Position numbers and translations under genes: made by a program
Shown: piece by piece, positions 1 to 17,117 of the stretch
How the letters are laid out: each line of letters begins with the position of its first letter
Numbering within the stretch: the stretch's first letter is position 1
Source of the DNA: Chitinimonas sp. BJYL2
GTDB taxonomy: Bacteria > Pseudomonadota > Gammaproteobacteria > Burkholderiales > Chitinimonadaceae
Reading direction: 5' to 3'
Assembly (NCBI RefSeq): GCF_027257935.1
Contig: NZ_JANZKW010000001.1
Location: 682,001 to 746,000 of the forward strand
Length of the DNA: 64,000 nucleotides
Notes under the pieces: generated by a model
What the model was told of the DNA's origin: nothing
The model's database searches: none
Seen by the model: only the letters and a program-made list of their open reading frames with translations

Positions 1-1
1 T

Positions 2-484
2 CTTGGCGCCGGAGGCTTCGTTATTATCTGTGGTTGCCTCGCAGTCATCGAGTCGGCACAGCTGGTTCGCCTTCATAACGAGCACAAGAAACTTACGCTC
101 GAGGCCGTAGCACTGGAGGCGCAGAACGCTCAAGTCAGAGCCATTGAGGCGGAAATGGCCAGTCTTACGCCCACGCTCGACACAATGCAGCAGTATATCG
201 GCGCGCCGCGCCAAACCAACTGGCTGGCCGCAGTCGTTCGCCACGACATTGCAGGGAGTCTGCCCGATGTCTACATCGCCGAATGGGATTACAACGGAAG
301 CCGGCTAACGGTTACGTTAAAACCCGGCCCCCGCGCACGCAATACAGACATCATTTCACGCATAGAACGCAGTCGATTATTCAGCGACGTGAGTCTGATC
401 CCTGACCCTCCCCCGGGGACGCTGCGCCTAATGCTCAAGTTATCGACCGATACTTCCGCTAACTTGCCGCAAGCCCAATCATGA
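2..484 (+). CDS. GspL/PilN-like inner-membrane T2SS protein, 5' partial
   Basis: The frame is open to the left edge of the window, so only the C-terminal part is present, about 160 residues. It begins inside a hydrophobic stretch (LGAGGFVIICGCLAVIE) that looks like one membrane span. An alanine/glutamate-rich coiled-coil segment follows, then a small alpha/beta domain (from about WLAAVVRHDIAGSLPDVYI), as in the periplasmic half of GspL or PilN. The stop codon overlaps the start of the next gene (ATGA at 481-484), so the two are translationally coupled. In T2SS, GspL links the cytoplasmic ATPase GspE to GspM. Family choice rests on architecture and gene order rather than on a diagnostic motif. 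Confidence 0.6.
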   Translation, partial: LGAGGFVIICGCLAVIESAQLVRLHNEHKKLTLEAVALEAQNAQVRAIEAEMASLTPTLDTMQQYIGAPRQTNWLAAVVRHDIAGSLPDVYIAEWDYNGSRLTVTLKPGPRARNTDIISRIERSRLFSDVSLIPDPPPGTLRLMLKLSTDTSANLPQAQS

Positions 485-1290
485 TCAGCACTTCGCACAG
501 TATCGAATCATCAATGAGCACGATGCAAAAAGCCACCGAGCGCTTGCAGCCTTGGGTTGAGGAGATTCGGGACAATCCCCGCCTACAGCTTGGCTTGGCA
601 AGCATCGTTTTTATTGCGCTCGTATTCAGCCTACTTAAATTGGACGCTGAAAGGGTCAAGCTACAGGCCTCTGTCGAGAAGCTATACGGTGAAAATCGTC
701 GCCTTCAGAAGCAGGCCGGGAGCGAAGCCTACCAAGGAGTGCTTGCAGGCAAGCTTGAAAAAGCAAAGCTCGCACTTAGTAACAGCCAGTGGCAAGCCGC
801 ATCCCAGCTCTCAGCCCAAGCCATGTTTCATGACTGGCTGTCAGCGCGAATCGTGGACGCCGGCGTGAAGGAGTATCGCATTGCACAACCGACCGCTCGC
901 TTCGTCGGTGACGAGCAATCTGGCTTGGGGATCGAGCAGCAAGACTGTACGCCTGAGACCTGTACGCTGCTCGAGTTACAAAGCTCGGTGAAAGTGGCAT
1001 TCGACCCAGTCAACGCGACCAAAGTGCTTGCAAATATCGAGCGATCAGATTGGCCTTTGAAAATTGAGAGCCTGACTATTCGCCCCGGCGATCGCAAGCT
1101 CGAATTTACTGTTAAGGCGCTGGCTCGCCTATCGAGCGATCTGCCCAATGACGAGCCTGCAGCACTTACAACACCACCTGCAGAGCAGCAACCAGCCCCG
1201 GCACCCAGTCAGGCAAAGTCCTCTGTCGCCGCCGGTGCAGAGGATACGCAGAGCACCCAGCCAAAGAAGGTAGTGGAAATCAAATGGTAG
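481..1290 (+). CDS. GspM/PilO-like inner-membrane T2SS assembly protein
   Basis: A 269-aa protein with a short cytoplasmic N-terminus, one membrane span (around residues 38-56, LGLASIVFIALVFSLLKL), a coiled-coil stretch and a periplasmic ferredoxin-like region. The last 50 or so residues are rich in Pro, Ala and Gln, which is an unusual tail for GspM. It overlaps the upstream GspL-like gene by 4 nt and the downstream gene by 7 nt, so it belongs to a tight operon. GspM dimerises with GspL in the inner-membrane platform. An in-frame ATG at 514 (MSTMQKATERL) is an alternative start. Sequence similarity to classical GspM is not obvious by eye; the call comes from topology and position. Confidence 0.6.
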   Translation: MISTSHSIESSMSTMQKATERLQPWVEEIRDNPRLQLGLASIVFIALVFSLLKLDAERVKLQASVEKLYGENRRLQKQAGSEAYQGVLAGKLEKAKLALSNSQWQAASQLSAQAMFHDWLSARIVDAGVKEYRIAQPTARFVGDEQSGLGIEQQDCTPETCTLLELQSSVKVAFDPVNATKVLANIERSDWPLKIESLTIRPGDRKLEFTVKALARLSSDLPNDEPAALTTPPAEQQPAPAPSQAKSSVAAGAEDTQSTQPKKVVEIKW

Positions 1291-1736
1291 GCCTTACTCG
1301 CATTGCCGCCTTGACGGTGGTCCTGTGGTTTGTTTGCGCCGCACTAGGTTGGGCGTGGTACTCCTCGCCATTCGATAAAACCCTGGTAGTCACGCGCAGT
1401 CCGCACTTCATGCCAGAGGTGCCGCAGCCTCCCGACCTTACCCAAGACGTTGCACTGCTTCAACGCAGCCTCCTGTGGCCAACCGATCAGCCCTCCGCTC
1501 AAGCCGCGGGAAAACCGGCCGAGCCGCAGGTCATCAACGAAGTATGGTCACGCGTGGCCATCGTTAAGGAGCCTCAAGGCAACTTTGTCTTGCTTGGATC
1601 GCCCAGTGGCACGGTCAAGCCATTCAAGGCCGGCGACGTACTACCAGATGGCAGCAGGCTGATCAAAGTAAGCACATCGGAGATTGTCGTTCGGCCAGCA
1701 TCTGGCAAGAGTCAATCCGTGCACCTGCTTAATTAA
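1284..1736 (+). CDS. GspC/PilP-like periplasmic connector protein
   Basis: A 150-aa protein with an N-terminal membrane anchor (about residues 4-27), a proline-rich linker, and a C-terminal beta-rich domain (VWSRVAIVKEPQGNFVLLG onward). The domain resembles the homology region of GspC or the PilP fold that contacts the secretin N0 domain. There is no PDZ or coiled-coil domain after it, so it is shorter than most GspC proteins. The start overlaps the previous gene by 7 nt and the secretin gene follows 26 nt downstream, the expected place for a connector between inner-membrane platform and secretin. The exact subfamily cannot be settled by eye. Confidence 0.6.
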   Translation: MVGLTRIAALTVVLWFVCAALGWAWYSSPFDKTLVVTRSPHFMPEVPQPPDLTQDVALLQRSLLWPTDQPSAQAAGKPAEPQVINEVWSRVAIVKEPQGNFVLLGSPSGTVKPFKAGDVLPDGSRLIKVSTSEIVVRPASGKSQSVHLLN

Positions 1737-1762
1737 GCATCAATCAAGAAACGCAGCAGATC

Positions 1763-4174
1763 GTGAAAAATCAGACTCCAAGACATCACCAGCTCACCGC
1801 ACAACGACCCATGGCTGGCAAAGCGGCGCTTTCCATGCTCGCCATTGGGCTCCTCAGCGCCTGCGCCGGGAACGCGTGGACTGAAAAGTCTCGATTCATA
1901 GATGACATCCCGGGTAAAAGCACGCCGGAAGCAGCGACAGCCACAGCATCCAAGCAGGATGCGGAGCGGGAGCGTTTTTTTGAAACACCGCCCCCTCCGA
2001 CCAGAGCCAACACAAAACCAGTTGTCGTATCAAAACCCGTAACCATTCCTGACGAACCAGGCAAAGAGGCGACCGTTGTTTTTAACAGCATGCCACTCCC
2101 TCAGTTTATCGACTCGGTTTTCGGAGTAGTGCTAAAGCAGACCATATCAATTGATCCAGCGATTCAACAGCGTCGGGATCTTGTTAGCATGCGCGCGGAT
2201 AAACCGCAAAGCCCAAGCCAGCTCTACGCCTCCGCAAAGGCCGTGCTGCAGTCCTATGGCGTCGTAGTCAAGGAGTTTTCCGGTCTGACCCGATTCGTAC
2301 CCGACTCGGCGGACACCAGCTCGCTCCCCGAGATCCGTCGCGGCAGGGCACTCCCCGAGGTCCCTGAGGCACTTCGGCCTCAATTCTATGTCGTGGAGCT
2401 GGATAACACCGTTGTCAGCAGCGTGACTTCATTCGTGCGCAATACGTTTGGCGACAAGGTAACCGTCAGGGATGATGCTCAGCGCAATGCGATCATCCTG
2501 TCCGGCACGCCCTCGAATGTATCAGCGGCCATGCAAGCCGTGCAGGCTCTCGACCAGCCTCTGATGCGAGGCCAAACCAGCGCACGCATCGTGCCCACCT
2601 ATTGGTCGGCGGAAGAACTGTCCCGGAGACTGAACGACATTCTCCTGGCCGAGGGCTACTTCGCAAGCACGTCCGCCAATACTCAAGCGCCTATCGTCCT
2701 GCTTCCAGTTGGCCCCATCAACTCGATTATTGTCTTCTCCACCAGCCCTACCACGCTTGAGCATGTTTTGCGCTGGGCAGAGGAACTGGATCGCCCCTCA
2801 GAGGCTCGCAACAGTAACTACTTTATTTACCCTGTCCGAAACGCCGATGCCTCGGAAATCGCCGCGACACTCTCGCAGATCATGGGCATAAGCAGCCCTG
2901 CAGCGCCAGCACCCGCAAGCGCAAGCGCCGCCGGCACCGCAAGCCCAACCCCCAGCAGAGCCTCATCGCGCGTGGTGGTCGACAAGGCCGGTAACAACCT
3001 TATCATCCAAGCCTCGGCCGCCGAGTACCAGCAGTGGTTCGCGCTGCTCCGCGAGTTGGATCGCCCGGCAAAGAGCGCACTGGTGAGTGTTACGGTTGCA
3101 GAAGTCCAACTCGACGAGAGCACCAATTTCGGTTTCGAGTGGATTGTCAATCAGCTCAAACTCTCCAATTACACGGGAGCACTGAGCACACTAGGCAGGC
3201 TGGGCGTCAACGATATAGGTGGCGTAGCCCTTACGCTCAATCGCGGGGCCTCCCCCGCGATGGTCCTGAATGCGCTCGCCCGCACCACAAAGACCCGCGT
3301 GCTCTCGAACCCCTCGCTGATGACTCGCAGCGGAGAAGAGGCCAGCATCTCGATTGGGGATGAAGTACCGACCGTCACCTCGAATCAGACCACCAGTACC
3401 ACCTCGCCCACCTCCCCCAACGTTCTGCAGACGATCCAGTATCGCAGCACCGGGGTCATCCTCAAGGTGCGCCCTGTCGTACGCAATGGCGGCCGGATTG
3501 ACCTTGATGTCAACCAGGAAGTCAGCAACGTCAAGGAAAACGCCGCAGGCTCAACCCTCACGCCCTCTATTTCCAAGCGTAGCGTCACTACCAAGCTGAC
3601 CGCCATCGACGGAAATACCATTGTTCTGGGCGGATTGATGACGGACAACCGTAACAACACCGACTCTGGCGTTCCGTATGCTAAAGATGTGCCACTGCTC
3701 GGTAATCTGTTTAAAAAGCGCGCGGACAGCCAGCAAAGGACTGAACTTGTCATACTGATCACCGCCTATGCAATCGAGGATGATTTCGACGCACAATCCA
3801 TTGCGGACGCAGTGAAGAGACGCTTCCCTTGGTCAACCCCCCTGATGAGTCGCCGAGACGTGGAACAGCCTTCCGCTAACGAAGGTCCTCAGGCTTCCGC
3901 AGCAGAAACCTCATCGCGCCCCGAAAAGCCCTATCAATTCAAATCAACAACAAGCGCAGAAGCCCCGGCAGCGCCCCATGTCGAAATGCAAACCGCAACC
4001 GATATGGCACCACAGCACCAGCCATCCGTCACCGCCCCCCCGCCACGTGCGGCATTGCCAGAACCGCCGCAGAAGCCGCTAACCGTGGACAAGCCGGTCA
4101 CAGATGCAAAAGGCGTAGTGACCGATGCCGAACTGAAGAAAGAGCTAATGGAAGCGCTGGGCCTCAAACCTTGA
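1763..4174 (+). CDS. gspD: Type II secretion secretin GspD (lipoprotein)
   Basis: An 803-aa outer-membrane secretin forming the T2SS exit channel. The N-terminus carries a lipoprotein-type signal ending in LLSAC, so the protein may target itself without a separate pilotin; none is encoded here. N0 lies around residues 95-170, N1/N2/N3 repeats follow to about 440, then the secretin domain with VTVAEVQLDESTNFGFEW and the conserved end GVPYAKDVPLLGNLFKKR. Residues after about 690 form a Pro/Ala-rich tail. The start chosen is GTG at 1763, because the next ATG (1811) has no ribosome site. It is followed by a hairpin and a 620-nt non-coding stretch rather than directly by gspE, which is unusual. 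Confidence 0.93.
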   Translation: MKNQTPRHHQLTAQRPMAGKAALSMLAIGLLSACAGNAWTEKSRFIDDIPGKSTPEAATATASKQDAERERFFETPPPPTRANTKPVVVSKPVTIPDEPGKEATVVFNSMPLPQFIDSVFGVVLKQTISIDPAIQQRRDLVSMRADKPQSPSQLYASAKAVLQSYGVVVKEFSGLTRFVPDSADTSSLPEIRRGRALPEVPEALRPQFYVVELDNTVVSSVTSFVRNTFGDKVTVRDDAQRNAIILSGTPSNVSAAMQAVQALDQPLMRGQTSARIVPTYWSAEELSRRLNDILLAEGYFASTSANTQAPIVLLPVGPINSIIVFSTSPTTLEHVLRWAEELDRPSEARNSNYFIYPVRNADASEIAATLSQIMGISSPAAPAPASASAAGTASPTPSRASSRVVVDKAGNNLIIQASAAEYQQWFALLRELDRPAKSALVSVTVAEVQLDESTNFGFEWIVNQLKLSNYTGALSTLGRLGVNDIGGVALTLNRGASPAMVLNALARTTKTRVLSNPSLMTRSGEEASISIGDEVPTVTSNQTTSTTSPTSPNVLQTIQYRSTGVILKVRPVVRNGGRIDLDVNQEVSNVKENAAGSTLTPSISKRSVTTKLTAIDGNTIVLGGLMTDNRNNTDSGVPYAKDVPLLGNLFKKRADSQQRTELVILITAYAIEDDFDAQSIADAVKRRFPWSTPLMSRRDVEQPSANEGPQASAAETSSRPEKPYQFKSTTSAEAPAAPHVEMQTATDMAPQHQPSVTAPPPRAALPEPPQKPLTVDKPVTDAKGVVTDAELKKELMEALGLKP

Positions 4175-4187
4175 CATTCCAACCAAC

Positions 4188-4207
4188 GAGCGGGCGCAAG
4201 CCCGCTC
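4188..4207 (+). terminator. Hairpin after gspD, probable (weak) terminator
   Basis: An 8-bp perfect GC-rich stem, GAGCGGGC / GCCCGCTC, with a GCAA tetraloop, starts 14 nt after the gspD stop. It is followed by a T-rich stretch (TGTCATTTGTTTG) rather than a pure T-run. It could terminate or attenuate the gspL-D transcript ahead of the surface-protein gene. Confidence 0.6.
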
Positions 4208-4674
4208 TGTCATTTGTTTGTCGTATGGCCACGCCCACGGATCGGCAAGATTACCCACAAGCCATTTCGTTGTGATGTAGCAACAGGCCAAGGGGACGGA
4301 CTGCGCTTACCACCACACACCCCGGCCACCATCACCCGCAACAAGTCGCTGAACTTCGCCATATCTATATGTTTTTTAAAGAAAAAGACACACAGAACGG
4401 CCCGCACATCCCAAGTAAAAATAAAACACCTCCGTGAATTGTGCAGCCAACAGCACAAAACCCCACAGGAAGCGGCTCACCAAGCACTTGGCATATTTCT
4501 GATGAATGCATTAAGCTGTGCGCAGCAATTTGTCGTACCGAGCACAGGGTCAATGCTTGCGGCGTCTGTTCTGCAAGGACAGTAACCCTTCTGTCGCAGC
4601 CGCAGCCGCTGCACAAGACAGCTAGTTGGCATGGCCAGAAAGTTGGATTGAAGTGGCATTGCTCGACGATCAAG

Positions 4675-4703
4675 TTGCGTGGGTCAATACTCACGGTTAA
4701 TAT
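4675..4703 (+). promoter_or_regulatory. Candidate sigma-70-type promoter for the surface-protein gene
   Basis: TTGCGT (4675-4680), a 17-nt spacer and TAATAT (4698-4703) fit a sigma-70 layout with partial consensus matches (3/6 and 4/6). The predicted transcript start is near 4710, giving a leader of about 85 nt before the ATG at 4796. This is a pattern match only. Confidence 0.35.
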
Positions 4704-4735
4704 TGCGCGGCCACAATACAGGCCGCGTGCAATAT
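4700..4735. repeat. Dyad (13-bp interrupted inverted repeat) in the surface-gene upstream region
   Basis: ATATTGC-GCGGCC (4700-4712) pairs with GGCCGC-(GT)-GCAATAT (4721-4735), with an 8-nt loop and a 2-nt bulge. It overlaps the candidate -10 element. It is therefore either an operator-like DNA dyad or, if transcription starts further upstream, an mRNA 5' stem-loop that could stabilise an abundant message. Confidence 0.5.
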
Positions 4736-4795
4736 CTAACGTGGGTATTGGCATGCATACCAAGGCATTGCTTGTTTTTTGAGGACCTCAAACAA

Positions 4796-6613
4796 ATGAA
4801 ACAAAAACTGATCTCTCGTCTGGTCGTAGGCGCTCTGGCTAGCGTTGCCGCTACCGCAGCCTTCGCCGGTCAAATCCAGTCGTCGTCGGTTTCGATTGCT
4901 CGCGAAGTAATCGTCGACAACGATCAGGAAATCACCTCCCCGCGCGTTTCCTACCGCTTCGCCGGTGACGTTGACGCACGTTCGCAAAACCAGGTTTTCC
5001 AGGTTCAGTTCATTCTGGAAAACGGCGCTCGCTGGGAAACCGCAGGTAACGCCGCCAACATCCAGATCACCGATGGTGTTGGTGGTCAACTGGCCACTCA
5101 AGGTGCTTCGGGCGCAGGTGACTACGAAGTTACCGCACTGGACATCGGCGGCGACAACGATGAAATCCTGTACGCAACCATCACCGTTTGGAACGCAGCC
5201 TTCGGTGCTACCACTCTGCCCACTGGCAACCTGATCAAGCAGCCGCTGATCTCGATGTCGGCCGGCGGCACCCGTCCTACGGTTGCTGATCTGTACGACG
5301 TGGTTGGCGAAGTTGTCGCTTGTGACACCGCCGTCAAACAACTGCCTGTCAGCTTCAAGCACTTTGTTGCCCTGTCGGCTCCTGCCTCGCTGGCATCCGC
5401 CGCCACCGCAACGGAAGATGAACACACCCGCGGCAACTCGACCAACCGCACGACGCTGATCACCTTCCCGACCAACGTTCTGGTCAAGGTGACCAAGTCG
5501 ACCGGCGATGCGAAGCTGGATGTGGCTGGTGGCAATGATACGTTTGCTGGTGCTACCGGTACTTCGTACATCAGCGCAACCTTGGCTAACCTGGGTAACG
5601 TGTCGCTGGTCCAGAACGCTTCGGGCTACGACTCGAACCTGGCCGATCCATACATCCTCGCCGATGCTGGCGGCGATGCCGACGGTGTGGCCGGTCTGTA
5701 CGGTGTTGCAACCGCCGACTTCGGTGCCGTTGACGCAACGCCAGACGGCGGTACCTTGGAAATCGAGAAGGTTACGGTCAAGATTTCCGCCAACCAAGGC
5801 TTCGTGACTGGCGGTACTGTGTTCCTGTCGACCGCCGCAAACTGCGGCGCAGCGATTGCTGGCGCAACGACTGGTGCTCTGTCGGCTTCGGCTGCAGCCG
5901 CACCGATCACGCTGACCATCTCGACTGCCAATGTTAACGGCGCATTCGGTGCGACTGGCGTGGGCCCTGTGCACGTTTGTTACCAAGTTCCTGGCACCGC
6001 CGTAATCCCGGCTAGCTCGTTCTATGTGGACGAAGCTCGCCTGGTCAAGGCTGCTGATGGTGGCGCGTTCGAGAACGAACAAGACAACTTCTGCTCGGGC
6101 CCGCTGTACGCCCTGTCCGGTTCGGTCAAGATCGACGTGCGTAACTACGCTTCGGCAAACCGCACCGACGGCTGGATGAGCATCATCCGCCTGATCAACC
6201 CAAGCGAAACCCGCACCGCTACCGTCTACGGCCAGTACATCTCGGCTGATGGCAAGTACGGCAAGTGGGGCAAGCTGGTTGATCTGAAGCCGCGCGCTGT
6301 TGTCAACTACACCGCTGCTCAAGTTGACGCCAAGCTGACCTCGGCTCCTGCTCACCCGACCGCCGCCAACAACATGGGCTCGGCCGATACGCTGGAAAAC
6401 GCCTCGTACAATGCACCGCGTCTGCGCATCACCAGCGAAACTGGCGATACGCTCCGCGTGCAGAACTACCTGTTCAACCCGGCTTCGCAGAACTTCATCG
6501 AAGCCTCGAGCAGCCAAGGTGTTGACTTCGCTGGTACCGCTGACCGCGCGCCAGCAAGCGAAGGCCAGTACCAAGATCAAGACGCTCACAAGGGCATCAA
6601 CGGCGGCAACTAA
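4796..6613 (+). CDS. Abundant secreted/surface protein, probable T2SS cargo (S-layer-like)
   Basis: A 605-aa protein with a clear Sec signal peptide (residues 1-24, cleavage after AFA). The ATG at 4796 is preceded by GAGGA at 4781-4785. The mature protein is rich in Ala, Gly, Thr and Asp, beta-like, with four cysteines spread along the chain (CDTAVKQ, NCGAA, VCYQV, FCSGP) that could form two disulphides, and a few Asp/Gly loops such as DAGGDADGVAG. No known enzyme motif was seen. Codon use is extreme: the codon-aligned antisense frame has no stop, so TTA, CTA and TCA are absent, while neighbouring gsp genes use such codons. That points to very high expression. Its place between gspD and gspE makes it the likely main cargo. 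Fibre adhesin or another structural role is possible. Confidence 0.75.
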   Translation: MKQKLISRLVVGALASVAATAAFAGQIQSSSVSIAREVIVDNDQEITSPRVSYRFAGDVDARSQNQVFQVQFILENGARWETAGNAANIQITDGVGGQLATQGASGAGDYEVTALDIGGDNDEILYATITVWNAAFGATTLPTGNLIKQPLISMSAGGTRPTVADLYDVVGEVVACDTAVKQLPVSFKHFVALSAPASLASAATATEDEHTRGNSTNRTTLITFPTNVLVKVTKSTGDAKLDVAGGNDTFAGATGTSYISATLANLGNVSLVQNASGYDSNLADPYILADAGGDADGVAGLYGVATADFGAVDATPDGGTLEIEKVTVKISANQGFVTGGTVFLSTAANCGAAIAGATTGALSASAAAAPITLTISTANVNGAFGATGVGPVHVCYQVPGTAVIPASSFYVDEARLVKAADGGAFENEQDNFCSGPLYALSGSVKIDVRNYASANRTDGWMSIIRLINPSETRTATVYGQYISADGKYGKWGKLVDLKPRAVVNYTAAQVDAKLTSAPAHPTAANNMGSADTLENASYNAPRLRITSETGDTLRVQNYLFNPASQNFIEASSSQGVDFAGTADRAPASEGQYQDQDAHKGINGGN

Positions 6614-6649
6614 GCCAGTTGAACCTTCGAAGCAACTTGTTCGAAAAGA

Positions 6650-6678
6650 AACCGGGAGGCTTGCCTCCCGGTTTTTTT
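6650..6678 (+). terminator. Strong intrinsic terminator after the surface-protein gene
   Basis: An 11-bp perfect stem, AACCGGGAGGC / GCCTCCCGGTT, with a 2-nt loop is followed by a run of seven T (6672-6678). It should end most transcription of the 605-aa gene and uncouple its level from the gspE-K operon. Confidence 0.92.
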
Positions 6679-6760
6679 ATTGGGCGGAGAACCTGCCCCG
6701 CTGTGTTCTACCATCAAGGCGCGGTAAAATTCGTGGTCGAACTTGAAGCAGGATCCAACC

Positions 6761-8470
6761 GTGTCTGAGCCATACCCCCATCGCCTTGGTGAACGCTTGA
6801 TTGCACGCGGTGTGCTTGATACTGCGGCGCTTGAGCGCGCCCTTGCACTGCAAGCCGCCAGCCCCGGTGATCGCCTTGGTGCGATTCTGATACGGCTAGG
6901 GCTCATCTCTGAGTTCACGTTGCTATCCATACTCAGCGAACAGCTGTCACTGCCTGTCTTCCAGCTCTCCGACCAGCCGGATGCGGCCGCCCAGATCAAA
7001 GCCATCCATGAACAGCGGCGCATATCGCGGGCGCTGGCAGAGCGCCATGCCTTCTTGCTGCTGAACGGGGATTCCGGGCAGATGCTTATCATCAGCCGTG
7101 ATCCGCTCGACTCTGGCTTGCTGGAGTTGATCGATACGCACCTGATGCTAAAAGGCCGGCATGCGTGGGCGCTGATTGCACAACGAGACTTTGAGCGCCT
7201 GTTGGGGGAGGTATACCGAACAGGCCAAGCCACGAGTCAGAACGACAGCGACCTACGCCGCCTGGCCGAGGATGCGCCTGTTGTAGAGCTGGTAAACGCC
7301 ATGCTCGCACGGGCCACAGACAAAGCCGCCTCGGATATTCATATCGAACCCTTGGAGTTCGGCTTTAGTGCTCGATACCGAGTAGACGGCCAGCTACAAG
7401 CGGTGGAGCACTATCCCAGAGAGCGTTTTGATGCCGTTGTGAGTCGCATCAAGCTGGTATCCGGTCTTGACATCGCCGAGCGCAGAATGCCCCAAGACGG
7501 CCGCTTCTCCAGCCGCGCCGCCGGTGTTGAAACCGACATTCGCGTATCAGTGATTCCCTCCATTTTTGGTGAATCTCTGGTACTCCGCCTCTTGCCCGTA
7601 TCTCAAGAAAAGCGATTCTCACTGGAGCAGACAGGTTTTGAACCAGATCACCTGGCCATGTTCAAAGAATGGATGAGCCTGCCGGATGGCATCATATTAG
7701 TTACAGGGCCCACAGGCTCGGGCAAGAGCACAACACTCTATGCTGCCTTGTCTGCGTGCGACCGAGAGCGGGAACGCATCCTGACGGTTGAAGACCCCGT
7801 GGAATACAAGATCGACGGGGTTACTCAGTTCCAGGTCAATACAGACATCGGCTTTACATTCCCATCCGCACTACGCTCCATATTGCGACACGATCCGGAC
7901 ACCATCATGATTGGCGAGATTCGCGATGTGGAGACTGCGCGAATTGCAGTGCAAGCGTCCCTGACGGGCCACCGTGTGCTATCAACACTTCATACCAACG
8001 ATAGCGCCACCGCCTTCTTGCGCTTGGTCGATCTCGGCGTGGAGCAATTTCTTGTCGGGGCCACCGTAAGAGGCGTTATCGCACAACGCCTGGTTAGGCG
8101 TCTGTGTAGTCATTGCGCAAAACCCTATGATCCGACTTCTTTGGTTCCGCCCAACGTGATCAACACACTCGAGCGGCTAGGCGTACCAGCGGGTGAATGG
8201 CGATTCAGACAGCCAGTGGGCTGCACCGCTTGTGGCGATACTGGCTACAAAGGTCGACATGCCATCTATGAATTGCTGCCAGCAAGTGACCGGGTTCGTT
8301 CACTGCTGGGGCAGCCGCAACCTTCACATCATGAGCTCCTTGCAGCACTAGACAAGAGCTTTCGCACCCTTTACGAGGATGGTTTGTTGAAAGCCGCACG
8401 TGGCATTACCAGCTTGGAAGAGGTGTTGATTGTCGCCGGGACAGCTATTTCACAGCGCACCGTCCAATAG
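6761..8470 (+). CDS. gspE: Type II secretion ATPase GspE
   Basis: A 569-aa cytoplasmic ATPase that powers T2SS pseudopilus assembly. The N-terminal domain (LGERLIARGVL) precedes the catalytic core. Walker A GPTGSGKSTT is near residue 315, the Walker B/Asp region IMIGEIRDVETARIA near 383, the His region LSTLHTNDS follows, and two CxxC pairs (CSHC near 448, CTAC near 488) form the zinc subdomain typical of GspE/PilB. GTG at 6761 is preferred because GCAGGA sits 7 nt upstream; an in-frame TTG at 6743 lacks such a site. Many A/T-rich codons (for example ATA TTA) contrast with the cargo gene just upstream. Confidence 0.95.
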   Translation: MSEPYPHRLGERLIARGVLDTAALERALALQAASPGDRLGAILIRLGLISEFTLLSILSEQLSLPVFQLSDQPDAAAQIKAIHEQRRISRALAERHAFLLLNGDSGQMLIISRDPLDSGLLELIDTHLMLKGRHAWALIAQRDFERLLGEVYRTGQATSQNDSDLRRLAEDAPVVELVNAMLARATDKAASDIHIEPLEFGFSARYRVDGQLQAVEHYPRERFDAVVSRIKLVSGLDIAERRMPQDGRFSSRAAGVETDIRVSVIPSIFGESLVLRLLPVSQEKRFSLEQTGFEPDHLAMFKEWMSLPDGIILVTGPTGSGKSTTLYAALSACDRERERILTVEDPVEYKIDGVTQFQVNTDIGFTFPSALRSILRHDPDTIMIGEIRDVETARIAVQASLTGHRVLSTLHTNDSATAFLRLVDLGVEQFLVGATVRGVIAQRLVRRLCSHCAKPYDPTSLVPPNVINTLERLGVPAGEWRFRQPVGCTACGDTGYKGRHAIYELLPASDRVRSLLGQPQPSHHELLAALDKSFRTLYEDGLLKAARGITSLEEVLIVAGTAISQRTVQ

Positions 8471-8521
8471 TGCGGTACCGCAATATGTTTGCAACACCTA
8501 CGTACAGATTGCTGATAGATC

Positions 8522-9718
8522 ATGGCTGACTTCCTGTTCCGGGGCGCTAACCCGGATGGACGAACCGAGTCAGGCTCGATACAGGCGGAGTCGTTCGCAG
8601 AAGCCATGCGGCAACTGGAAGAGCGGCGACTGACCGTATACGAACTCAGGCCCAATATTGCCTCCGGCGTACTCCGTAGCAAGCGCATAAAGCACGACGA
8701 CCTTGTGATGCTGGTAAGAGAGCTGGCAACGCTTGCAACAGCAGGCATCAGTTTGGCCGATGCACTGGGTACGCTATCGGATGCAAACAGCGGTACGCCT
8801 TTGGGACGGCCTTTGGCGCAGATGGTGAAGAATATTCAAGGCGGCGAAGGGTTTTCGGCTGCGCTGCAGAAGACTGGTTTGGCCTTGCCCGAGTATGTAC
8901 ATGCAATGGTGCGCGCAGGCGAGGCTACCGGCAGCATTGGCAAAGCCTTGAGCCGCGCGGCTGACCAAATGGATTTTGATGCCAAACTGCGCGCTCAAAC
9001 CAAAGAAGCTTTGGTTTATCCGACCATACTGGTTGGTACGGGTACCGTTGCGGTACTTTTCATTTTCTCCTTTGTCGTACCGCGCTTTGCCGGGTTACTC
9101 AAAGGTCGCTTCGACGAACTACCCTGGATTTCAACTGTTGTGCTGAAACTGGGCATGTTCTTTAACACGCATTTCTGGGCGGTTGTGGCGATGCTCGTGC
9201 TGTTGATAACTGCATTGCTTGCCGTTTTCCGGCGCCCAACCACCCGTTTACGCATGCTCGAGTTGGCCTCTCAGTTACCCATGATAGGCGCCTGGATACA
9301 GAGCGGTGAAACCGCCAGATGGACCGGCTCTTTAGCCATGCTACTCGACAGCAAGGTCGCCATTCTCAACGCACTGTCGCTGACGGCAGGGTCTGTTCGC
9401 TTGGCTGAAACAGCCAGCAAACTGGAAAAAGTGTATTCCGAGGTCAATCGCGGCAAGCCCCTGTCGCAAGCTATCGACCATGAGAAGCTACTCGAACCCA
9501 CATCACTATCCATGGTTCGCGTGGGTGAACAGTCAGGTGAGCTGAGTACCATGCTGCAGCACGTTGCGCATTATTGGAGCGAGAAAAATCACTCGATGCA
9601 GCGCAGGATGGTCGCCCTGATTGAACCTGCGAGCATTCTGCTACTTGGTTTTGTTATCGGATTTGTCATGGTGGGCGTCGTGCTGGCTATGGCATCACTC
9701 TCAGAGGTAAAAATCTAA
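8522..9718 (+). CDS. gspF: Type II secretion inner-membrane platform protein GspF
   Basis: A 398-aa polytopic protein with the two repeated T2SSF domains (about residues 70-190 and 270-390) and three membrane helices (near 165-190, 215-240 and 370-393). The GEATGSIGKALSRAADQM and GEQSGELSTMLQHVAHYW helices are family hallmarks. GspF forms the centre of the inner-membrane platform above GspE. It follows gspE after 51 nt, and its stop overlaps the gspG start (TAATG). Confidence 0.94.
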   Translation: MADFLFRGANPDGRTESGSIQAESFAEAMRQLEERRLTVYELRPNIASGVLRSKRIKHDDLVMLVRELATLATAGISLADALGTLSDANSGTPLGRPLAQMVKNIQGGEGFSAALQKTGLALPEYVHAMVRAGEATGSIGKALSRAADQMDFDAKLRAQTKEALVYPTILVGTGTVAVLFIFSFVVPRFAGLLKGRFDELPWISTVVLKLGMFFNTHFWAVVAMLVLLITALLAVFRRPTTRLRMLELASQLPMIGAWIQSGETARWTGSLAMLLDSKVAILNALSLTAGSVRLAETASKLEKVYSEVNRGKPLSQAIDHEKLLEPTSLSMVRVGEQSGELSTMLQHVAHYWSEKNHSMQRRMVALIEPASILLLGFVIGFVMVGVVLAMASLSEVKI

Positions 9719-10197
9719 TGCAACACAACACAACTCGCTACCGCTTCCGAAAGGCCAGCCTGCGTGGTTTCACCTTGCTAGAAATGCTGGTGGTACTGGT
9801 TATCATTGGCATGCTAGTGGGTCTAGTTGGCCCTCAGCTGTACTCCAATGTGGATCGCTCAAAGGTTCAAACGGCTGTAACACAAGCCAAGCTTCTCAAA
9901 GGCGCTATTGAAACCATGCGCCTGGATATCAATACCTACCCCAGCGTTGCCCAAGGTGGTCTGAGACTTTTGGTCGAGCGCCCATCAGATGAGAAACTGG
10001 CCAGAAAGTGGCGCGGCCCCTATCTCGAAGACGCGCTGCCCGATGACCCGTGGGGCAATCCTTACGTGTATCTGATTCCCGGGAAAAACGGCAAACCCTT
10101 TTCAATTCTTTCTTACGGCGCAGATGGTAAAGAGGGCGGCGAGGGGTACGACGCAGATGTCGGTACGATAGAGACGAAAACTGATGAGCCGGCCTAG
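9718..10197 (+). CDS. gspG: Major pseudopilin GspG
   Basis: A 159-aa prepilin: a 17-residue basic leader ends in G, and the mature protein starts FTLLEMLVVLVIIG, with Glu at position 5. It belongs to the major-pseudopilin class by length and by the conserved C-terminal region (LARKWRGPYLEDALPDDPWG, then an Asp-rich loop near DGKEGGEGYDAD) that binds calcium in GspG. Cleavage needs a prepilin peptidase, and none is encoded in this window. The start overlaps the gspF stop. Confidence 0.95.
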   Translation: MQHNTTRYRFRKASLRGFTLLEMLVVLVIIGMLVGLVGPQLYSNVDRSKVQTAVTQAKLLKGAIETMRLDINTYPSVAQGGLRLLVERPSDEKLARKWRGPYLEDALPDDPWGNPYVYLIPGKNGKPFSILSYGADGKEGGEGYDADVGTIETKTDEPA

Positions 10198-10200
10198 TTC

Positions 10201-10614
10201 ATGTCAAGACCAGGTGATTATGGGTTTACTCTGCTTGAAATCCTGATCGTACTCGTACTTATCGGAATGATGATGGGCTTGGTGGGTCCTGGCGTGGTTG
10301 GTCAGATTGACCGCTCCCAAGAACGGGATGCGATTGATCGCTTTCAGTCGGAGTTGTCTCAGCTCCCGAGATGGGCTCGCATTACTGGAAAACCTCTGGC
10401 TCTGGAAAATCTGTCCGTACCTGTCATTGAGGATGGCGAGCTCCTGCTTGACTTACCTCCCGGCTGGCGTGCGCAGTTCTCGCCGAAACTCATCGTCTCA
10501 CCACGCCAGCTTTGCAATGGCAGTAACGTTTCACTCTTTAGTTCAGGAGGGACTCTGGTGAGGACATTCTCCGTCCAGTCACCCGATTGCAGCTTACAGA
10601 GAACTGATACATGA
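10201..10614 (+). CDS. gspH: Minor pseudopilin GspH
   Basis: A 137-aa prepilin-like protein with a short 8-residue leader ending in G, then FTLLEILIVLVLIGMMMG with Glu5. It sits between gspG and gspI, the usual place for gspH. The C-terminal domain is small and beta-rich. Its stop overlaps the next start by 4 nt (ATGA), indicating translational coupling. Assignment as GspH rests on gene order plus the prepilin N-terminus. Confidence 0.85.
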   Translation: MSRPGDYGFTLLEILIVLVLIGMMMGLVGPGVVGQIDRSQERDAIDRFQSELSQLPRWARITGKPLALENLSVPVIEDGELLLDLPPGWRAQFSPKLIVSPRQLCNGSNVSLFSSGGTLVRTFSVQSPDCSLQRTDT

Positions 10615-11075
10615 CCGCGTCAAATGCCGCCAAAGATGGTGTCCGGCATGAGCGGGGATTTGGCGTACTTGAAGTGCTTGTTTCTTTAGTGCTGGTTACT
10701 TCGGTGGGCATCGCTATTGTTGTCTGGGTGAACAATAGTCTGCTTTCCATTGCGCGCCTTGAAAGCGAGTACGCCCGAATACAGGCTGTCCGGCTCACGC
10801 AAGACTGGGTTCGATCTCTTGCGCACACAGATCAGAACAAGGGAGAAACCACCATCGGGGGCTTGACGCTGCGCTGGGAAAGAAAGGAAATCTCGCGCAA
10901 TGCACAAGCAGGCTACCCGTCCGGACTAGGACAGTTTGACGTTATTCTGTACGAGTATACCTATGGGGCCTTTCGCAGCGCCTCCGATACGCAACCATGG
11001 TTTGAAGAACAGGTACTGCAAGTGCAGTCTGTGAAAACCAGGGATTTCCGCCCCCCCTTTGAAACAGCGCCATGA
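10611..11075 (+). CDS. gspI: Minor pseudopilin GspI
   Basis: A 154-aa prepilin-like protein: a 16-residue leader ending RG, then FGVLEVLVSLVLVTSVGIAIV, with Glu at mature position 5. Length and the position between gspH and gspJ fit GspI, which with GspJ and GspK forms the pseudopilus tip. It overlaps both neighbours by 4 nt. The first mature residues FGVLE differ slightly from the usual FTLLE. Confidence 0.84.
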   Translation: MTASNAAKDGVRHERGFGVLEVLVSLVLVTSVGIAIVVWVNNSLLSIARLESEYARIQAVRLTQDWVRSLAHTDQNKGETTIGGLTLRWERKEISRNAQAGYPSGLGQFDVILYEYTYGAFRSASDTQPWFEEQVLQVQSVKTRDFRPPFETAP

Positions 11076-11722
11076 AAAGCTGTGCTGGCATTCAGACGCC
11101 GATTAAACATCATTCGGGCTTCACGCTTCTAGAAGTACTCGTGGCCTTGGCCATTACTAGTTTGATCATGGCGCTACTTATGGGGGCCAGCTACTACGTA
11201 ATGCAGGTGAGAGTGCGTTTGGTTAACGAAGTCCATCAGGGCGAGACAGAAGTTCGCAATCAGCTTTGGTTTCGCGAGGTGGTTGCAAGTATCCAACCGG
11301 CGCCGCGCGAGTCGTCGGACACATTCGAGGGCTCTCCGACCGAGTGGCGCGGTTTCGTCCTCTTGCCTTTGGATGGCGACCCCCACCGTGCTGCGCCACA
11401 GGTTGTTACCATGTCCATTGAGGCTTTAAAGTCCGGCGAGAATGCGCTGATATATCGTGCGGGAGATAGCGCGATAACAATCGCAAGCTGGCCGTTCTCC
11501 AATGTCCGCTTCGCATATCAGACGAGTTCGGGGCAGCTCTTGGAGTATTGGAAATCCTCTGAACAGGGTGTAGAGCGCACACCTCGTGGAATCCAAATCA
11601 AAGTGGCAAATAATGCTAACGCACAAAAGTCAGAGGATTTCTCTTGGTATGCCCGTATCGATGCAGATCCATGGATGCGGCCGCCCAGAGCACCCGATTT
11701 CCTTCTGGGTGCAGGAGGCTAA
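11072..11722 (+). CDS. gspJ: Minor pseudopilin GspJ
   Basis: A 216-aa prepilin-like protein with a 16-residue leader ending in G, then FTLLEVLVALAITSLIMALLMG with Glu5. The size and the C-terminal W-rich beta domain (WYARIDADPWMRPP) match GspJ. It overlaps gspI by 4 nt and is followed 4 nt later by gspK. GspJ is part of the I-J-K tip complex. Confidence 0.86.
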   Translation: MKSCAGIQTPIKHHSGFTLLEVLVALAITSLIMALLMGASYYVMQVRVRLVNEVHQGETEVRNQLWFREVVASIQPAPRESSDTFEGSPTEWRGFVLLPLDGDPHRAAPQVVTMSIEALKSGENALIYRAGDSAITIASWPFSNVRFAYQTSSGQLLEYWKSSEQGVERTPRGIQIKVANNANAQKSEDFSWYARIDADPWMRPPRAPDFLLGAGG

Positions 11723-11726
11723 GGCT

Positions 11727-12770
11727 GTGACGAGCCTCAACGGGGATCCGCCTGTCTCGAGCACACAGCAGGGCTATATCCTTATTATGACAATTGCAGC
11801 GCTTGCATTGCTGGCGCTGGGTGGCGCTTATATTGGGCATCAAGTCTCGACGGCACTGCGACTGGCGATTGCAGAACAAACACAGGCAGAAGAAGAAAAA
11901 CTAGCGCGCGACACCATGGCGCGCATGATCTATCTAGTGGCGACAACAAAACGCTCTGCCATAGGCTTGGGCAGTGATGATGTTGCGCTTCGAATGGATG
12001 GTCGATGGTACTCGGCGCCCCATGGCATGGCGGTCTCCGTCAAAGATGGCCGAGGGTTGGTTAACTTGGCCACGGCGCCGAGAGCCGTCTTGGAGCGTCT
12101 ATTATTAAGCTATGGTGTACCTGCAGAAAGAACTGGCTTCCTGATCGATGCCCTTGATGACTATAGTGACTCAGACTCGCTGAAACGATTAAATGGGGCA
12201 GAGGCCGAAGAGTACGCTAGGCAGAAAATGCCCCCACCCAGAAACCAGCCGTTATTAGTGCCCGCAGAGCTGAAACGCGTCCTCGGCTGGGCATCTGAAG
12301 ATAAACTCTGGCAGGAAGATTCTATTCTGGAGCAAACCGTCATTTCCGAGCACACAGGCGTCAATCCCGCGACCGCTGATTGGCGAACCCTGATGACCTC
12401 TTTGGGTCTGTCTGAAATGGATGCCAGAGCATTTATCACCGCTCGAGCAGACTTGAATGCGGCCGGCATCTCCCAGCTTTCCAGGCCTTTCTTCGGTGCG
12501 TTCTCGGGCAACGATCTGCTAAAGCTTCATCAACCAGTTCTATATCCATCAGCTACGGTGGTAATCACAACAACGAAGCCCGGCAGCCGGCGAGCGTGGC
12601 GGCTAACAATGACACTCACGCCCTCCGAGCACTCTAGCCCTTGGAGAGTTACTAACTTCCACACTGTAACCCCAATCAGCCCGATAACTACCGAGATACT
12701 AACAACACCACCCGATCTAACCGCCTACAGGGCTTACGTGGATTACAACAACATAACATTGCCATTCTGA
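11727..12770 (+). CDS. gspK: Minor pseudopilin GspK
   Basis: A 347-aa tip pseudopilin. The chosen GTG at 11727 follows a GGAGG ribosome site (11714-11718) and gives a 16-residue leader ending QQG, then YILIMTIAALALLALGG. There is no Glu5, as is normal for GspK. The helical insert seen in GspK is recognisable (VNLATAPRAVLERLLLSYG, then DALDDYSDSDSLKRLNGAEA, and later VPAELKRVLGW). This is the last gene of the secretion operon; the next gene is on the other strand. Confidence 0.88.
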   Translation: MTSLNGDPPVSSTQQGYILIMTIAALALLALGGAYIGHQVSTALRLAIAEQTQAEEEKLARDTMARMIYLVATTKRSAIGLGSDDVALRMDGRWYSAPHGMAVSVKDGRGLVNLATAPRAVLERLLLSYGVPAERTGFLIDALDDYSDSDSLKRLNGAEAEEYARQKMPPPRNQPLLVPAELKRVLGWASEDKLWQEDSILEQTVISEHTGVNPATADWRTLMTSLGLSEMDARAFITARADLNAAGISQLSRPFFGAFSGNDLLKLHQPVLYPSATVVITTTKPGSRRAWRLTMTLTPSEHSSPWRVTNFHTVTPISPITTEILTTPPDLTAYRAYVDYNNITLPF

Positions 12771-12806
12771 AGGGGTAGTCGTAGGCCAACGGCAACTACT
12801 TCAATA

Positions 12807-13334
12807 TTAGTGCTTGGACACCATCAACTTGTCCGTATAGGCCATGATCACCGCCGATAGCAGGAAAGTGCAGTGGATCACTACCTGCCACATCACGGAA
12901 TTGGAATCCGTGTTGGTAGTGGAAATGGAGGGATCACTGAGGCTGATGAAAGTCTTGAGCAGGTGGATCGAGGAGATGCTGATCAATGCAAGCGCGAGCT
13001 TGGTTTTGAGCACGCCTGCATCCACATGGGACAGCCATTCAGGGCGATCTTCGTGTTTGTCGAGGATGTCGATCTTGGAAACAAAGGTCTCGTAACCGCC
13101 AATCACCACCATGATCAGCAGGTTGGCAATCATCACCACGTCAATCAGGCCCAGAACGATAAGCATGATCTGGGTTTCGCCCATGGCGTTGGCGTCGGCA
13201 ACCAGATGCACGAGTTCGCGCAGGAACTTGTACACGTAGACGCCCTGAGCCACGATCAGGCCCAGATAGAGCGGGGCTTGGAGCCAGCGACTCCAGAAGA
13301 TGAAACTTTCCATACGGGCGACGGCAGACTTCAT
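12807..13334 (-). CDS. UPF0114/YqhA-family inner-membrane protein
   Basis: A 175-aa protein with four hydrophobic helices (around 17-40, 57-84, 112-131 and 147-171) and the family sequence MESFIFWSRWLQAPLYLGLI near the N-terminus, followed by YVYKFLRELVHL and GGYETFVSKIDI. UPF0114/YqhA proteins are widespread membrane proteins of unknown function. It converges with gspK, 36 nt apart, and shows no obvious link to secretion. Confidence 0.88.
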   Translation of the reverse strand: MKSAVARMESFIFWSRWLQAPLYLGLIVAQGVYVYKFLRELVHLVADANAMGETQIMLIVLGLIDVVMIANLLIMVVIGGYETFVSKIDILDKHEDRPEWLSHVDAGVLKTKLALALISISSIHLLKTFISLSDPSISTTNTDSNSVMWQVVIHCTFLLSAVIMAYTDKLMVSKH

Positions 13335-13412
13335 TGCGAACCTCTAACTCGAACCAAAGCCGCAAGTATCCATAAGGCCGGCGCTTGTGCAAGTCCCCTC
13401 GGCACGGCGGGA

Positions 13413-13691
13413 TCAGCCCCCGCCTAAGCTAGCCATGACAGCCCCTTTGTCCTGAGTCTGGGCAAGTACGGCGCGGATACGGTTGAATGCCGAGGCCGCT
13501 TGGTCAGGATACTTGCCGAAGGAAATCAGGTTGCTGTGCTTCCAGCCCGCCGCCGCCAGCACCTCGTTCCGGAACTTGGCCGCATCCCCATCCCCAGCTA
13601 TCTGTATCAGAGCACGCTCTATCAAGACATGCGGCGGTGGCTCACGAGAAATAGAAGTGAAGTGCTCCGCGCGACTTTCCTGGAATTCCAT
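13413..13691 (-). CDS. Small hypothetical protein, 92 aa
   Basis: A 92-aa soluble protein (MEFQESRAEHFTSISREPPP...). The start is chosen because a strong GGGGAGG site lies 5 nt upstream; longer in-frame starts to 13862 run into the neighbouring gene and lack such a site. No domain was recognised. The middle part is helical (AKFRNEVLAAAGWKHSNLI). It lies between the TPR/glycosyltransferase-like gene and the UPF0114 gene on the same strand, so the three may be co-transcribed. Confidence 0.55.
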   Translation of the reverse strand: MEFQESRAEHFTSISREPPPHVLIERALIQIAGDGDAAKFRNEVLAAAGWKHSNLISFGKYPDQAASAFNRIRAVLAQTQDKGAVMASLGGG

Positions 13692-13791
13692 TTCGCCTCC
13701 CCGTTTTACACACTGTTCATGGTCATTGAAGCTCATGACCGGAGGATTTACTACCACCAGTTCGCCCTGACAATCACGTGACAACAGCGGT

Positions 13792-15357
13792 CTAGCAGTT
13801 CTTGGGCTGGCTATAACTTGATAGCATATCGGCCAGACATGCTTGAACATGGTTGCAAACACCCGCCCAGTCGCCAGGCGAGCTTTGACGAAACAATCGC
13901 ATCGTTGGGTACCACGGTGTATCCGTTCGGCCGAGTTGCCAACGCCAATCCGGGTTGAAGGGCAACATTATCCAAACCGGCTTTCCCATTGCAGCCGCCA
14001 AATGAGCGACGGACGTATCCACACTGATCACCAGATCCATCTCCTCCACAAGCGAGGAGGTGTCAGCAAAGTCCTTTAAATAAACCGACCAGTCACTAAT
14101 GCCGGACGAGTCCATCAGGGGCCGGTCTTGCGCAGAAATCATGGTCTGTATCGCGTGGAAATCACAATCCGCATCCATAAGCGGCATCAACCATGACAAA
14201 GGCATCGAGCGCCTATGGTCGTTGACGTGTTTTGAGCTGCCTGACCATACAAGACCAATGCGTGGGCGGGTTTGCACACCCAGCTTCGTTCGCCATACAT
14301 CTGCGGAACTCTTGTCCGAGAATATATACGGCTGAGAGTGCGATACTTTGTTTGCCCAGCCTCGGCAAGCATGCGGGAGACTCATCAACGGGCACTGTGC
14401 GTCTGCTTGGATAGGCGTATCAGATAAGGCCGCAACCGCCTTCAGTCCGGGAAGATTACTTAGCAGCCGAACCAACGTGTCCTGAGTCTGCAAAATGACG
14501 CTGATACCATGTTCAGCCAGTGAACTGACATAGCGGCAAAACTGTACCGTATCGCCGAAACCTTGTTCAGCATGCACCAGTAGGGTCTGACCACGAATAT
14601 CGTAATCCCCTAACCATAGGGGTAGATTTCTGTGCCGAGCTTTATGCCCCCCTGACGAGATTGACCAGCGCCACTCGTACTCCGCCCAACCTTCTGCCAG
14701 CCTCCCCATCTGAAGCAGACACAAGGCCCTATTCCAGTGAGCATCGGGGTCAAGCGGTGATAATGCAAGAGAGGCATTCAGGGACATAAGTGCCTCATCA
14801 GGTCGAAGCAAGTCCCGCAGCACCTCGGCCCGAGCAGTGAGTGCGTGGATATTCCCTGGTTGATAGCCCAACGCAATGTCGATCTCGGCCAGCGCGTCGG
14901 TCGAACGATCCAGACGCTGGTAGAGAAGGCCCAGGTTGCAATGGACCTCACTGACACTTGTATCCAGTTTGATTGCGGATAGATAGCTTGCCAAGGCTTC
15001 GTTTAGCAGACCCAGCGCGCTTTGTGCGTTACCCAGATTATTTAACGAGGCGGGGGTATGTGCACCAAGTTCGCCAACTTTCTCCAAAACAACGCAAGCG
15101 CACTCAAAGCCGCCAGCCTGTATATGCGCCGCGCCCAGACTTGCCCATATCTCGGGCTCTGAACTCGCCAGCTCAGCAGCGAGGGCTAGGCAATCTATTG
15201 CTTGCCGAAAATCCCCAGTCTGTAACAGTGCAATACCCAAGCAATGTAGGACACTCACATCATAGGGAGAATCGTCATGCAGGGAAGAATAAATCGCGAT
15301 AGCCCTGGCTAGCTCACCCTGCTGATGCAAGGTTACCGCAAGATCAAAGCGATTCAT
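13792..15357 (-). CDS. TPR protein with glycosyltransferase-9-like C-terminal domain
   Basis: A 521-aa protein. Residues 1 to about 235 are tandem TPR units (repeating patterns such as LNNLGNAQSALGLLNEALAS and CNLGLLYQRLDRSTDALAEI). The C-terminal half starts near LLVHAEQGFGDTVQFCRYV and ends with VDTSVAHLAAAMGKPVWIML and WRWQLGRTDTPWYPTMRLFR, the layout of GT9/GT41-like TPR glycosyltransferases. Such proteins often O-glycosylate flagellin or surface proteins. It lies close to the T2SS locus and its putative cargo, so a role in modifying that protein is a reasonable inference, not shown. Codon use here is more A/T-rich than in genes after 16 kb. Confidence 0.8.
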   Translation of the reverse strand: MNRFDLAVTLHQQGELARAIAIYSSLHDDSPYDVSVLHCLGIALLQTGDFRQAIDCLALAAELASSEPEIWASLGAAHIQAGGFECACVVLEKVGELGAHTPASLNNLGNAQSALGLLNEALASYLSAIKLDTSVSEVHCNLGLLYQRLDRSTDALAEIDIALGYQPGNIHALTARAEVLRDLLRPDEALMSLNASLALSPLDPDAHWNRALCLLQMGRLAEGWAEYEWRWSISSGGHKARHRNLPLWLGDYDIRGQTLLVHAEQGFGDTVQFCRYVSSLAEHGISVILQTQDTLVRLLSNLPGLKAVAALSDTPIQADAQCPLMSLPHACRGWANKVSHSQPYIFSDKSSADVWRTKLGVQTRPRIGLVWSGSSKHVNDHRRSMPLSWLMPLMDADCDFHAIQTMISAQDRPLMDSSGISDWSVYLKDFADTSSLVEEMDLVISVDTSVAHLAAAMGKPVWIMLPFNPDWRWQLGRTDTPWYPTMRLFRQSSPGDWAGVCNHVQACLADMLSSYSQPKNC

Positions 15358-15451
15358 GTCTGCGCCTCACCGATAAGCTGTGGTAATGCATTAGGGCATG
15401 ACAAGCCGGCGTGAGAGCGGCTGTTAGCAAGCACCATGACTGATGGCTGAC

Positions 15452-15480
15452 TGCGGCGACGTCGTCATGATGTCGCCGCA
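15452..15480 (-). terminator. Hairpin downstream of infA and the small ORF
   Basis: A 9-bp perfect stem, TGCGGCGAC / GTCGCCGCA, with an 11-nt loop lies 61 nt past the end of the small gene on the minus strand. No clear T-run follows, so termination is only possible, not certain. Confidence 0.4.
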
Positions 15481-15540
15481 AACAACTTCGCCACACAGTA
15501 CGCCATGCGCACAGGTTCGGTACGTTTTTTTTGGCAAAAC

Positions 15541-15738: not shown

Positions 15739-15757
15739 TGCAATTCCAGTAACTGTT

Positions 15758-16746: not shown

Positions 16747-16911
16747 CTTGCCTTTGCGTGCGCAGTCACACGACGATAAATCGCCTTGGCGGCGCTAATC
16801 AGCCTAAGATCAGGGTACGTGTCGCCCGGCAGCATTGGGCCGACACCGCGGGGTGCAACCCGTAACGCCTTACCGCTGCATGGGGTAGCCCATGCGGCAA
16901 GGAGAAGTACC

Positions 16912-17037: not shown

Positions 17038-17117
17038 GCATGCCGCCGCTGCCTGGCCCGGCCAGCGTGCTGGCAGGTCGTGCCGGGCGGCGTTGTATTG
17101 CCGGGGCAGATGCACGG

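Follow-up and report, generated by a model that had tools for sequence, protein, structure and literature searches.

A gene cluster for a type II secretion system (T2SS) opens a 64,000-nucleotide stretch of the Chitinimonas sp. BJYL2 genome (contig NZ_JANZKW010000001.1, positions 682,001 to 746,000; the whole stretch is called the window in the following), and between its gspD and gspE genes lies the gene of a 605-aa exported protein, P0001, referred to as the cargo. Comparative analysis makes it highly probable that P0001 is a surface-layer (S-layer) protein of the NpdA type exported by its own T2SS. NpdA is an S-layer protein with a 25-aa leader and no conserved domain, widespread in Beta- and Gammaproteobacteria, with a gsp cluster adjoining its gene in Comamonadaceae (PMC10765051). 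Disruption of the gene in Delftia led to loss of the S-layer (PMC3110197); the need for the adjoining T2SS was left undecided by PMC10765051. S-layer secretion of this kind is thus already known from NpdA and Slr4, and from its sequence P0001 looks like a new, divergent member. In the proposed mechanism, P0001 would be produced abundantly from a transcription unit of its own, cross the inner membrane by Sec and fold in the periplasm, after which the T2SS encoded on either side of it would drive it through the GspD pore; outside the cell it would assemble into a lattice held by lipopolysaccharide (LPS).

Conserved linkage of the cargo gene to gsp genes

A scan of genome contigs returned five relatives of P0001 with 45-55% identity, among them proteins of Andreprevotia lacus DSM 23236 (L015), a Comamonadaceae metagenome-assembled genome (MAG; L013) and a Rhodoferax MAG (L014), the names of the latter two indicating that the family of the Rhodoferax MAG is presumably Comamonadaceae. 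Whole-genome searches, whose genome draws overlap, detected homologues in 2 of 60 relatives (counting the own genome), in 3 of 43 genomes of the family holding A. lacus, in 7 of 392 genomes of a further family and in 16 of 299 genomes of the Rhodoferax MAG's family. Thirteen of these 16 are strong, and the others (G1212, G1379, G1474; E 9e-4 to 0.01) were excluded as weak. A class-wide search with the 17-row alignment A2 gave matches in 3 of 369 genomes; two of them (E 8.7e-4 and 0.003) were set aside, leaving the own genome as the single convincing one, and genus searches around G1331 and G1240 (three genomes each) added no further homologue. With doubles merged on the basis of equal contigs or places (G400 = L015, G483 = L011, G376 = G1367) and weak matches left aside, the total amounts to 26 genomes. 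Profile comparison of the Rhodoferax-family set (A7) with the seven-row alignment A1 aligned 565 columns with probability 100 and E 3.5e-79.

Twenty-four of the 26 genomes have the cargo gene within or next to a gsp cluster, although the gene order varies. The order D-cargo-E of the window recurs in L012, L013, L015, L016, L028, L074, L075, L082, and L083, and L014 has D-cargo followed by a 6.8-kb insert before E. In L011, L030, L031, L040, L041, and L076-L080, as well as in part in L044, E-cargo faces away from F-G...D; in L032 the cargo is convergent with D at a distance of 3.4 kb, and in L038 it follows D. Persistence of the linkage despite such rearrangement argues for function. Gsp genes adjoin the homologues of the Rhodoferax MAG's family in L013, L014, L032, L074-L080, L082, and L083. 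The two remaining genomes are ambiguous: copy L029 of G378 has no gsp genes within 20 kb while a GspE with 76% identity lies near a contig end, and the copy of G1232 (L081) is located at a contig start. Cargo genes in genomes lacking this T2SS, named in the preliminary description of this DNA as telling against its proposal, were accordingly searched for, and no clear case was found among the 26 genomes.

The cargo family is diverse, a 489-aa protein encoded after gspD in G711 matching it with E 5.7e-8. In G008 (L051), gspD is followed by the gene of a 475-aa protein, which A2 matches over part of its C-terminal half (E 1.4e-8) and which went undetected with the smaller profile A1 (probability 9); G008 was left out of the 26-genome count. 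A. lacus carries an orphan copy (L043) besides the gsp-linked gene, and three short genes in tandem that correspond to just the N-terminal region of this family (L042 7714-10926, G400), and G1341 has a truncated copy (L084). The insert of the Rhodoferax MAG between cargo and gspE (L014 8956-15600) contains small genes that appear by eye toxin-antitoxin-like.

A separate GspE lineage accompanying the cargo

Of the 53 genomes seen in the two families nearest to the window, 17 were compared (10 of the own family and 7 of the 43 of the other), and a GspE with at least 73% identity to that of the cluster was present in all five cargo genomes and in none of the 12 without cargo, their best GspE match being 52% or less. 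A tree computed from 44 GspE-type ATPases unites the cargo-linked sequences with a sister group (G005, G006, G008, G009) in a single clade of 26 (support 98/96), and other T2SS-type ATPases from the same and other genomes are placed elsewhere (18 control loci, L118-L135, of which L119 gave no row and L118 a partial one). Co-occurrence and tree, the latter with the cautions given below, show GspE inherited together with the cargo and separately from the general T2SS. This clade may serve as a marker for S-layer T2SSs whose lattice proteins have diverged beyond detection.

SoxY and/or SoxZ are encoded beside gspE in four scanned sister-branch clusters (Pfam E 6e-12 to 1e-21; Table 1). Contig C2 of the own genome has a secretin/ATPase locus near each of its two ends (L120 and L121; G000:C2:12001-32000 and G000:C2:890001-910000), the two running in opposite directions and their ATPases being nearly identical.

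Expression signals of the cargo gene

The codon bias of the cargo gene is apparently that of a very abundant protein. Its effective number of codons (ENC) is 34.1, compared with 50.9-61 in ten surrounding gsp genes; the value predicted from its G+C content at third codon positions (GC3) is 54.4, and codons of a 12-codon rare set are absent from it vs 7-16% in the same ten genes. The bias, noted already in the preliminary description, recurs among homologues: cargo ENC is below gspE ENC in all 18 loci compared, selected out of 24. Two orphan cargo copies have ENC values of 43.3 and 40.0.

The terminator ascribed to the gene in the preliminary description was also recovered, as a hairpin with a z score of -6.05 (Table 1), unlisted by a simple pattern scan and found by a later script for a hairpin plus T-run. 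Such a feature is present within 120 bases 3' of the cargo in 23 of 24 gsp-linked loci and in neither of two orphan copies; controls gave 12 in 1300 mononucleotide shuffles and none in the ten window gsp genes. On the upstream side, gspD and the cargo gene are separated by 621 nt, and a by-eye conserved block in three genomes suggests that the cargo may have its own promoter.

The cargo protein and its likeness to known S-layer proteins

P0001 starts with a typical Sec leader as read by eye (MKQKLISR-LVVGALASVAATAAFA/GQ), in line with the signal peptide previously proposed, and has a computed mature mass of 59.7 kDa. Its four cysteines at positions 176, 350, 395, and 433 are all invariant in A1, and in A2 only cysteines 176 and 433 remain nearly invariant. 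Searches of P0001 against Pfam, NCBIfam, and PDB sequences yielded nothing significant, and the 11 members of alignment A4 matched no Pfam family at E 0.01. The matches listed were sub-threshold, for example to DUF1464 (E 0.069) and to the flagellar brake YcgR (E 0.025-0.55), the latter including the lowest E value. A porin or cytoplasmic match, the other observation named beforehand as speaking against an S-layer protein, was thus not found in these databases, and such an identity was rejected. Foldseek likewise gave nothing at E 0.001 or better; local resemblances to 1nc7 and 2ii7-2ii9 (probability 0.97-0.99, E 0.04-0.13) were not used. Neither plasmids (tblastn with P0001 and the L038 and L075 proteins) nor viral contigs gave a match, and a plasmid or phage-contig origin of the cargo was rejected.

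The published descriptions of NpdA from Delftia acidovorans and Paracidovorax citrulli (PMC3110197, PMC10765051) resemble P0001 in the Sec leader (about 24 aa in P0001, 25 in P. citrulli), in the lack of a known domain, in the gene by a gsp cluster and in homologues in Comamonadaceae. The predicted size of about 61 kDa for Delftia NpdA and the mature 52.4 kDa of P. citrulli NpdA are similar to that of P0001. The 13 strong gsp-linked relatives among the 299 genomes of the Rhodoferax MAG's family match this description, and the statement of the preliminary description that P0001 is not recognizably related to known S-layer proteins has therefore to be revised. P0001 differs from the NpdA description in its position between D and E, with L-M-C-D upstream, and in its kin: Table 2 of PMC10765051 lists no Chitinibacteraceae, whereas P0001 has relatives in this family (A. 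lacus) and in the window's own family. If the assignment is true, the NpdA type extends to both families, which are absent from that table, and includes P0001 as an uncharacterized, apparently abundant protein.

Further systems were likened to P0001 by description. Slr4 of Pseudoalteromonas tunicata is an S-layer protein encoded beside a conserved T2SS cluster and has a Sec/signal peptidase I leader (PMC7821379), and VapA of Aeromonas combines one S-layer gene with a dedicated T2SS (PMC10765051, PMC7821379). In Caulobacter the S-layer gene rsaA is likewise linked to its exporter, yet secretion is of type I and not type II (PMC10765051, PMC7821379). PDB sequence searches with P0001 or A1 at E 1 did not return the RsaA entry 5n8p, which is named in PMC7821379. 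No PMC paper on Chitinimonas with an S-layer was found.

O-antigen-type export genes beside cargo loci

Upstream of gspL (L017), genes for an ABC-2 permease, an ATPase with a Wzt C-terminal domain, a methyltransferase, and a glycosyltransferase are encoded. Homologues of these or similar genes of L053 and L054 occur in 17 of 24 cargo loci and in none of 22 other T2SS-type loci (E 1e-10; Fisher 2.1e-7), a comparison in which the loci are not independent and the queries come from cargo loci; omission of the three query-supplying loci leaves 14 of 21 vs 0 of 22 (Fisher 1.5e-6). The 24 loci exclude L013 (3.6 kb) and L048 (a cargo-less contig without match) and include L081 with no gsp genes in view, and flanks differ in length between 10 and 20 kb. 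Among the controls, L118/L119, L120/L121, and L049/L050 are adjacent pieces or near-copies, and L051 bears the distant cargo relative. Wzm- and/or Wzt-type O-polysaccharide exporter genes were seen in L017 1-9151 (window about -10000 to -849), L015, L016, L028, L030, L032, L041, L054, L082, and L083, joined in several of these loci by methyltransferases and glycosyltransferases.

The S-layer of RsaA is anchored by LPS. Because O-antigen-type genes flank the cargo loci, we infer that their product may anchor the lattice of P0001, which fits older work on Delftia, recounted in PMC3110197, according to which the layer protein required LPS for assembly. The words lipopolysaccharide, LPS, O-antigen, and glycosyl do not occur in the main text of PMC10765051, and the glycan-export linkage therefore offers a fresh lead, as a testable guess on lattice anchoring, where that text is silent. 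Tentatively, and with somewhat greater readiness to see it fail than hold, we propose that an S-layer module was inherited as one block in Betaproteobacteria. It would comprise the T2SS clade, the lattice protein, and a Wzm/Wzt O-polysaccharide set with methyltransferases making the LPS anchor, the lattice proteins having diverged or been swapped until their kinship is hardly detectable (L038, L051), with SoxYZ-like genes in one branch.

Weighing of the alternative explanations

The preliminary description had proposed a secretion line dedicated to a single abundant surface protein, perhaps an S-layer; the comparative evidence (linkage in 24 of 26 genomes, GspE in 5 of 5 vs 0 of 12, terminators, the GspE clade, and codon bias) supports this proposal, with an S-layer as the probable identity. 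It is unlikely that P0001 is instead an abundant T2SS-exported surface or matrix protein, such as an adhesin, sheath or biofilm matrix component, which forms no two-dimensional lattice. Evidence derived here from sequences would be compatible with such a protein, T2SS-linked Slr4 was termed both an S-layer protein and a matrix component (PMC7821379), and the three tandem N-terminal-only copies of Andreprevotia indicate that parts of the cargo family may act otherwise, whereas the codon bias of a very abundant protein speaks against it. The cluster could also be a general T2SS for several enzymes, e.g., chitinases, with the cargo as just one substrate, or the cargo could be exported by another T2SS, and the own genome with its 8 secretin and 11 GspE-type matches does contain other export routes. 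We regard this as very unlikely, since the GspE of the cluster follows the cargo, and the own-genome GspE of L118 (a partial row) sits in a different part of the tree together with four same-genus genomes with and without cargo. A porin or other outer-membrane barrel misread as secreted cargo might account for the abundant-protein codon bias, the Sec leader and a low-confidence beta-rich prediction. As a rule, outer-membrane barrels end in a terminal aromatic residue, P0001 ends in GINGGN, and with no significant database match in addition the probability of a barrel is close to negligible.

Several points weigh against P0001 as an NpdA-type protein with its own T2SS. Membership in NpdA (authenticated records WP_011797163 and DelCs14_5206) is deduced from family position, and the L074 and L075 homologues differ in mass from the published 52,394 Da. 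Distribution of the family is patchy, with matches in 7 of 399 genomes of the order, and Andreprevotia and G378 have cargo copies away from gsp genes. On the GspE tree the label "S-layer T2SS" requires three changes (starred branches force two) since the sequence from G711 falls inside the sister group, and the edge of the clade is unsure because it is drawn open with long branches beside it. The codon-bias gap is small in some loci (ENC 30.0 vs 31.3 in L075, 27.2 vs 29.7 in L080), and 4 of 37 mechanically picked open reading frames of the window, with frames unchecked and GC3 uncorrected, have an ENC below that of the cargo. A scan for a sigma-70 consensus promoter at the cargo gave none, against 1.0 expected from shuffles. 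The AlphaFold model is poor (mean predicted local distance difference test score 48.3 at full length and 61.0 for the C-terminal 267 aa) and therefore provides no fold evidence.

Organization of the gsp cluster and neighboring genes

All genes of the cluster are on the + strand in the order L-M-C-D, cargo, E-F-G-H-I-J-K (Table 1), and coordinates, Pfam, and homology agree with the arrangement first described. Position 1 of the window falls within gspL, which starts 649 bases before it. The order is indeed not the classical one, though it represents a cyclic permutation of F-G-H-I-J-K-L-M-C-D-cargo-E as found in L082 and L083. The T2SS comprises secretin D, ATPase E, platform F, pseudopilins G-K, and assembly proteins L, M, and C, of which D, E, F, G, and K are backed by Pfam, with the pilin methylation motif (N_methyl) in G, H, and J. 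The names of L, M, C, and I, matchless in Pfam, derive from homology to and place in related clusters; the full pseudopilin set claimed earlier is consequently present, with I by homology. Rfam gave no match across window positions 1-20000.

Table 1. Coordinates of the features discussed (window positions unless a locus is named)
Feature	Position	Strand	Basis
gspL, 3' part	1..484 (whole gene window -649 to 484 = L017 9351-10484)	+	homology to GspL of L015, L016, L028
gspM	481..1290	+	homologue at matching place in L015, L016, L028; no Pfam match
gspC	1284..1736	+	homologue in L015, L016, L028; no Pfam match
gspD, outer-membrane secretin	1763..4174	+	Pfam Secretin E 6.1e-46, Secretin_N 7.2e-25; lipoprotein-type leader by eye
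Hairpin 3' of gspD, possible terminator, weak T-run	4188..4207	+	z -5.1; not accepted by stricter hairpin script
Leader region of cargo gene	4672..4795	+	by-eye block common to L015, L016; GAGGA ribosome site before ATG
Cargo gene (P0001, 605 aa, exported, probable NpdA-type S-layer protein)	4796..6613	+	homologues, codon bias, profile comparison
Intrinsic terminator of cargo gene	~6649..6680	+	stretch 6645-6680: -23.5 kcal/mol, z -6.05
gspE, ATPase with MshEN domain	6743..8470	+	Pfam T2SSE E 3e-122, MshEN E 1.6e-06; tree
gspF	8522..9718	+	Pfam T2SSF E 1.4e-46
gspG, major pseudopilin	9718..10197	+	Pfam T2SSG E 3.4e-33
gspH, pseudopilin	10201..10614	+	N_methyl E 1.8e-06
gspI, pseudopilin	10611..11075	+	homologue in L015, L016, L028; no Pfam match
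gspJ, pseudopilin	11072..11722	+	N_methyl E 4e-08
gspK	11730..12770	+	T2SSK_1st E 4.2e-11
SoxY/SoxZ	L049 11628-11975; L051 7348-8194; L052 1458-1769; L054 9578-10353		Pfam

A UPF0114 gene abuts the gsp cluster or sits a few kb off in five loci (window 12807-13334; L016 4801-5325; L049; L050; L051 6836-7339), the copies being 72-82% identical to that of the window, on which the Pfam assignment was made; this recurrence hints at a shared insertion place. Near the cluster, at window positions 13792-15357, a tetratricopeptide repeat protein with a weak match to glycosyltransferase family 9 is encoded, possibly a protein or lipid glycosyltransferase.

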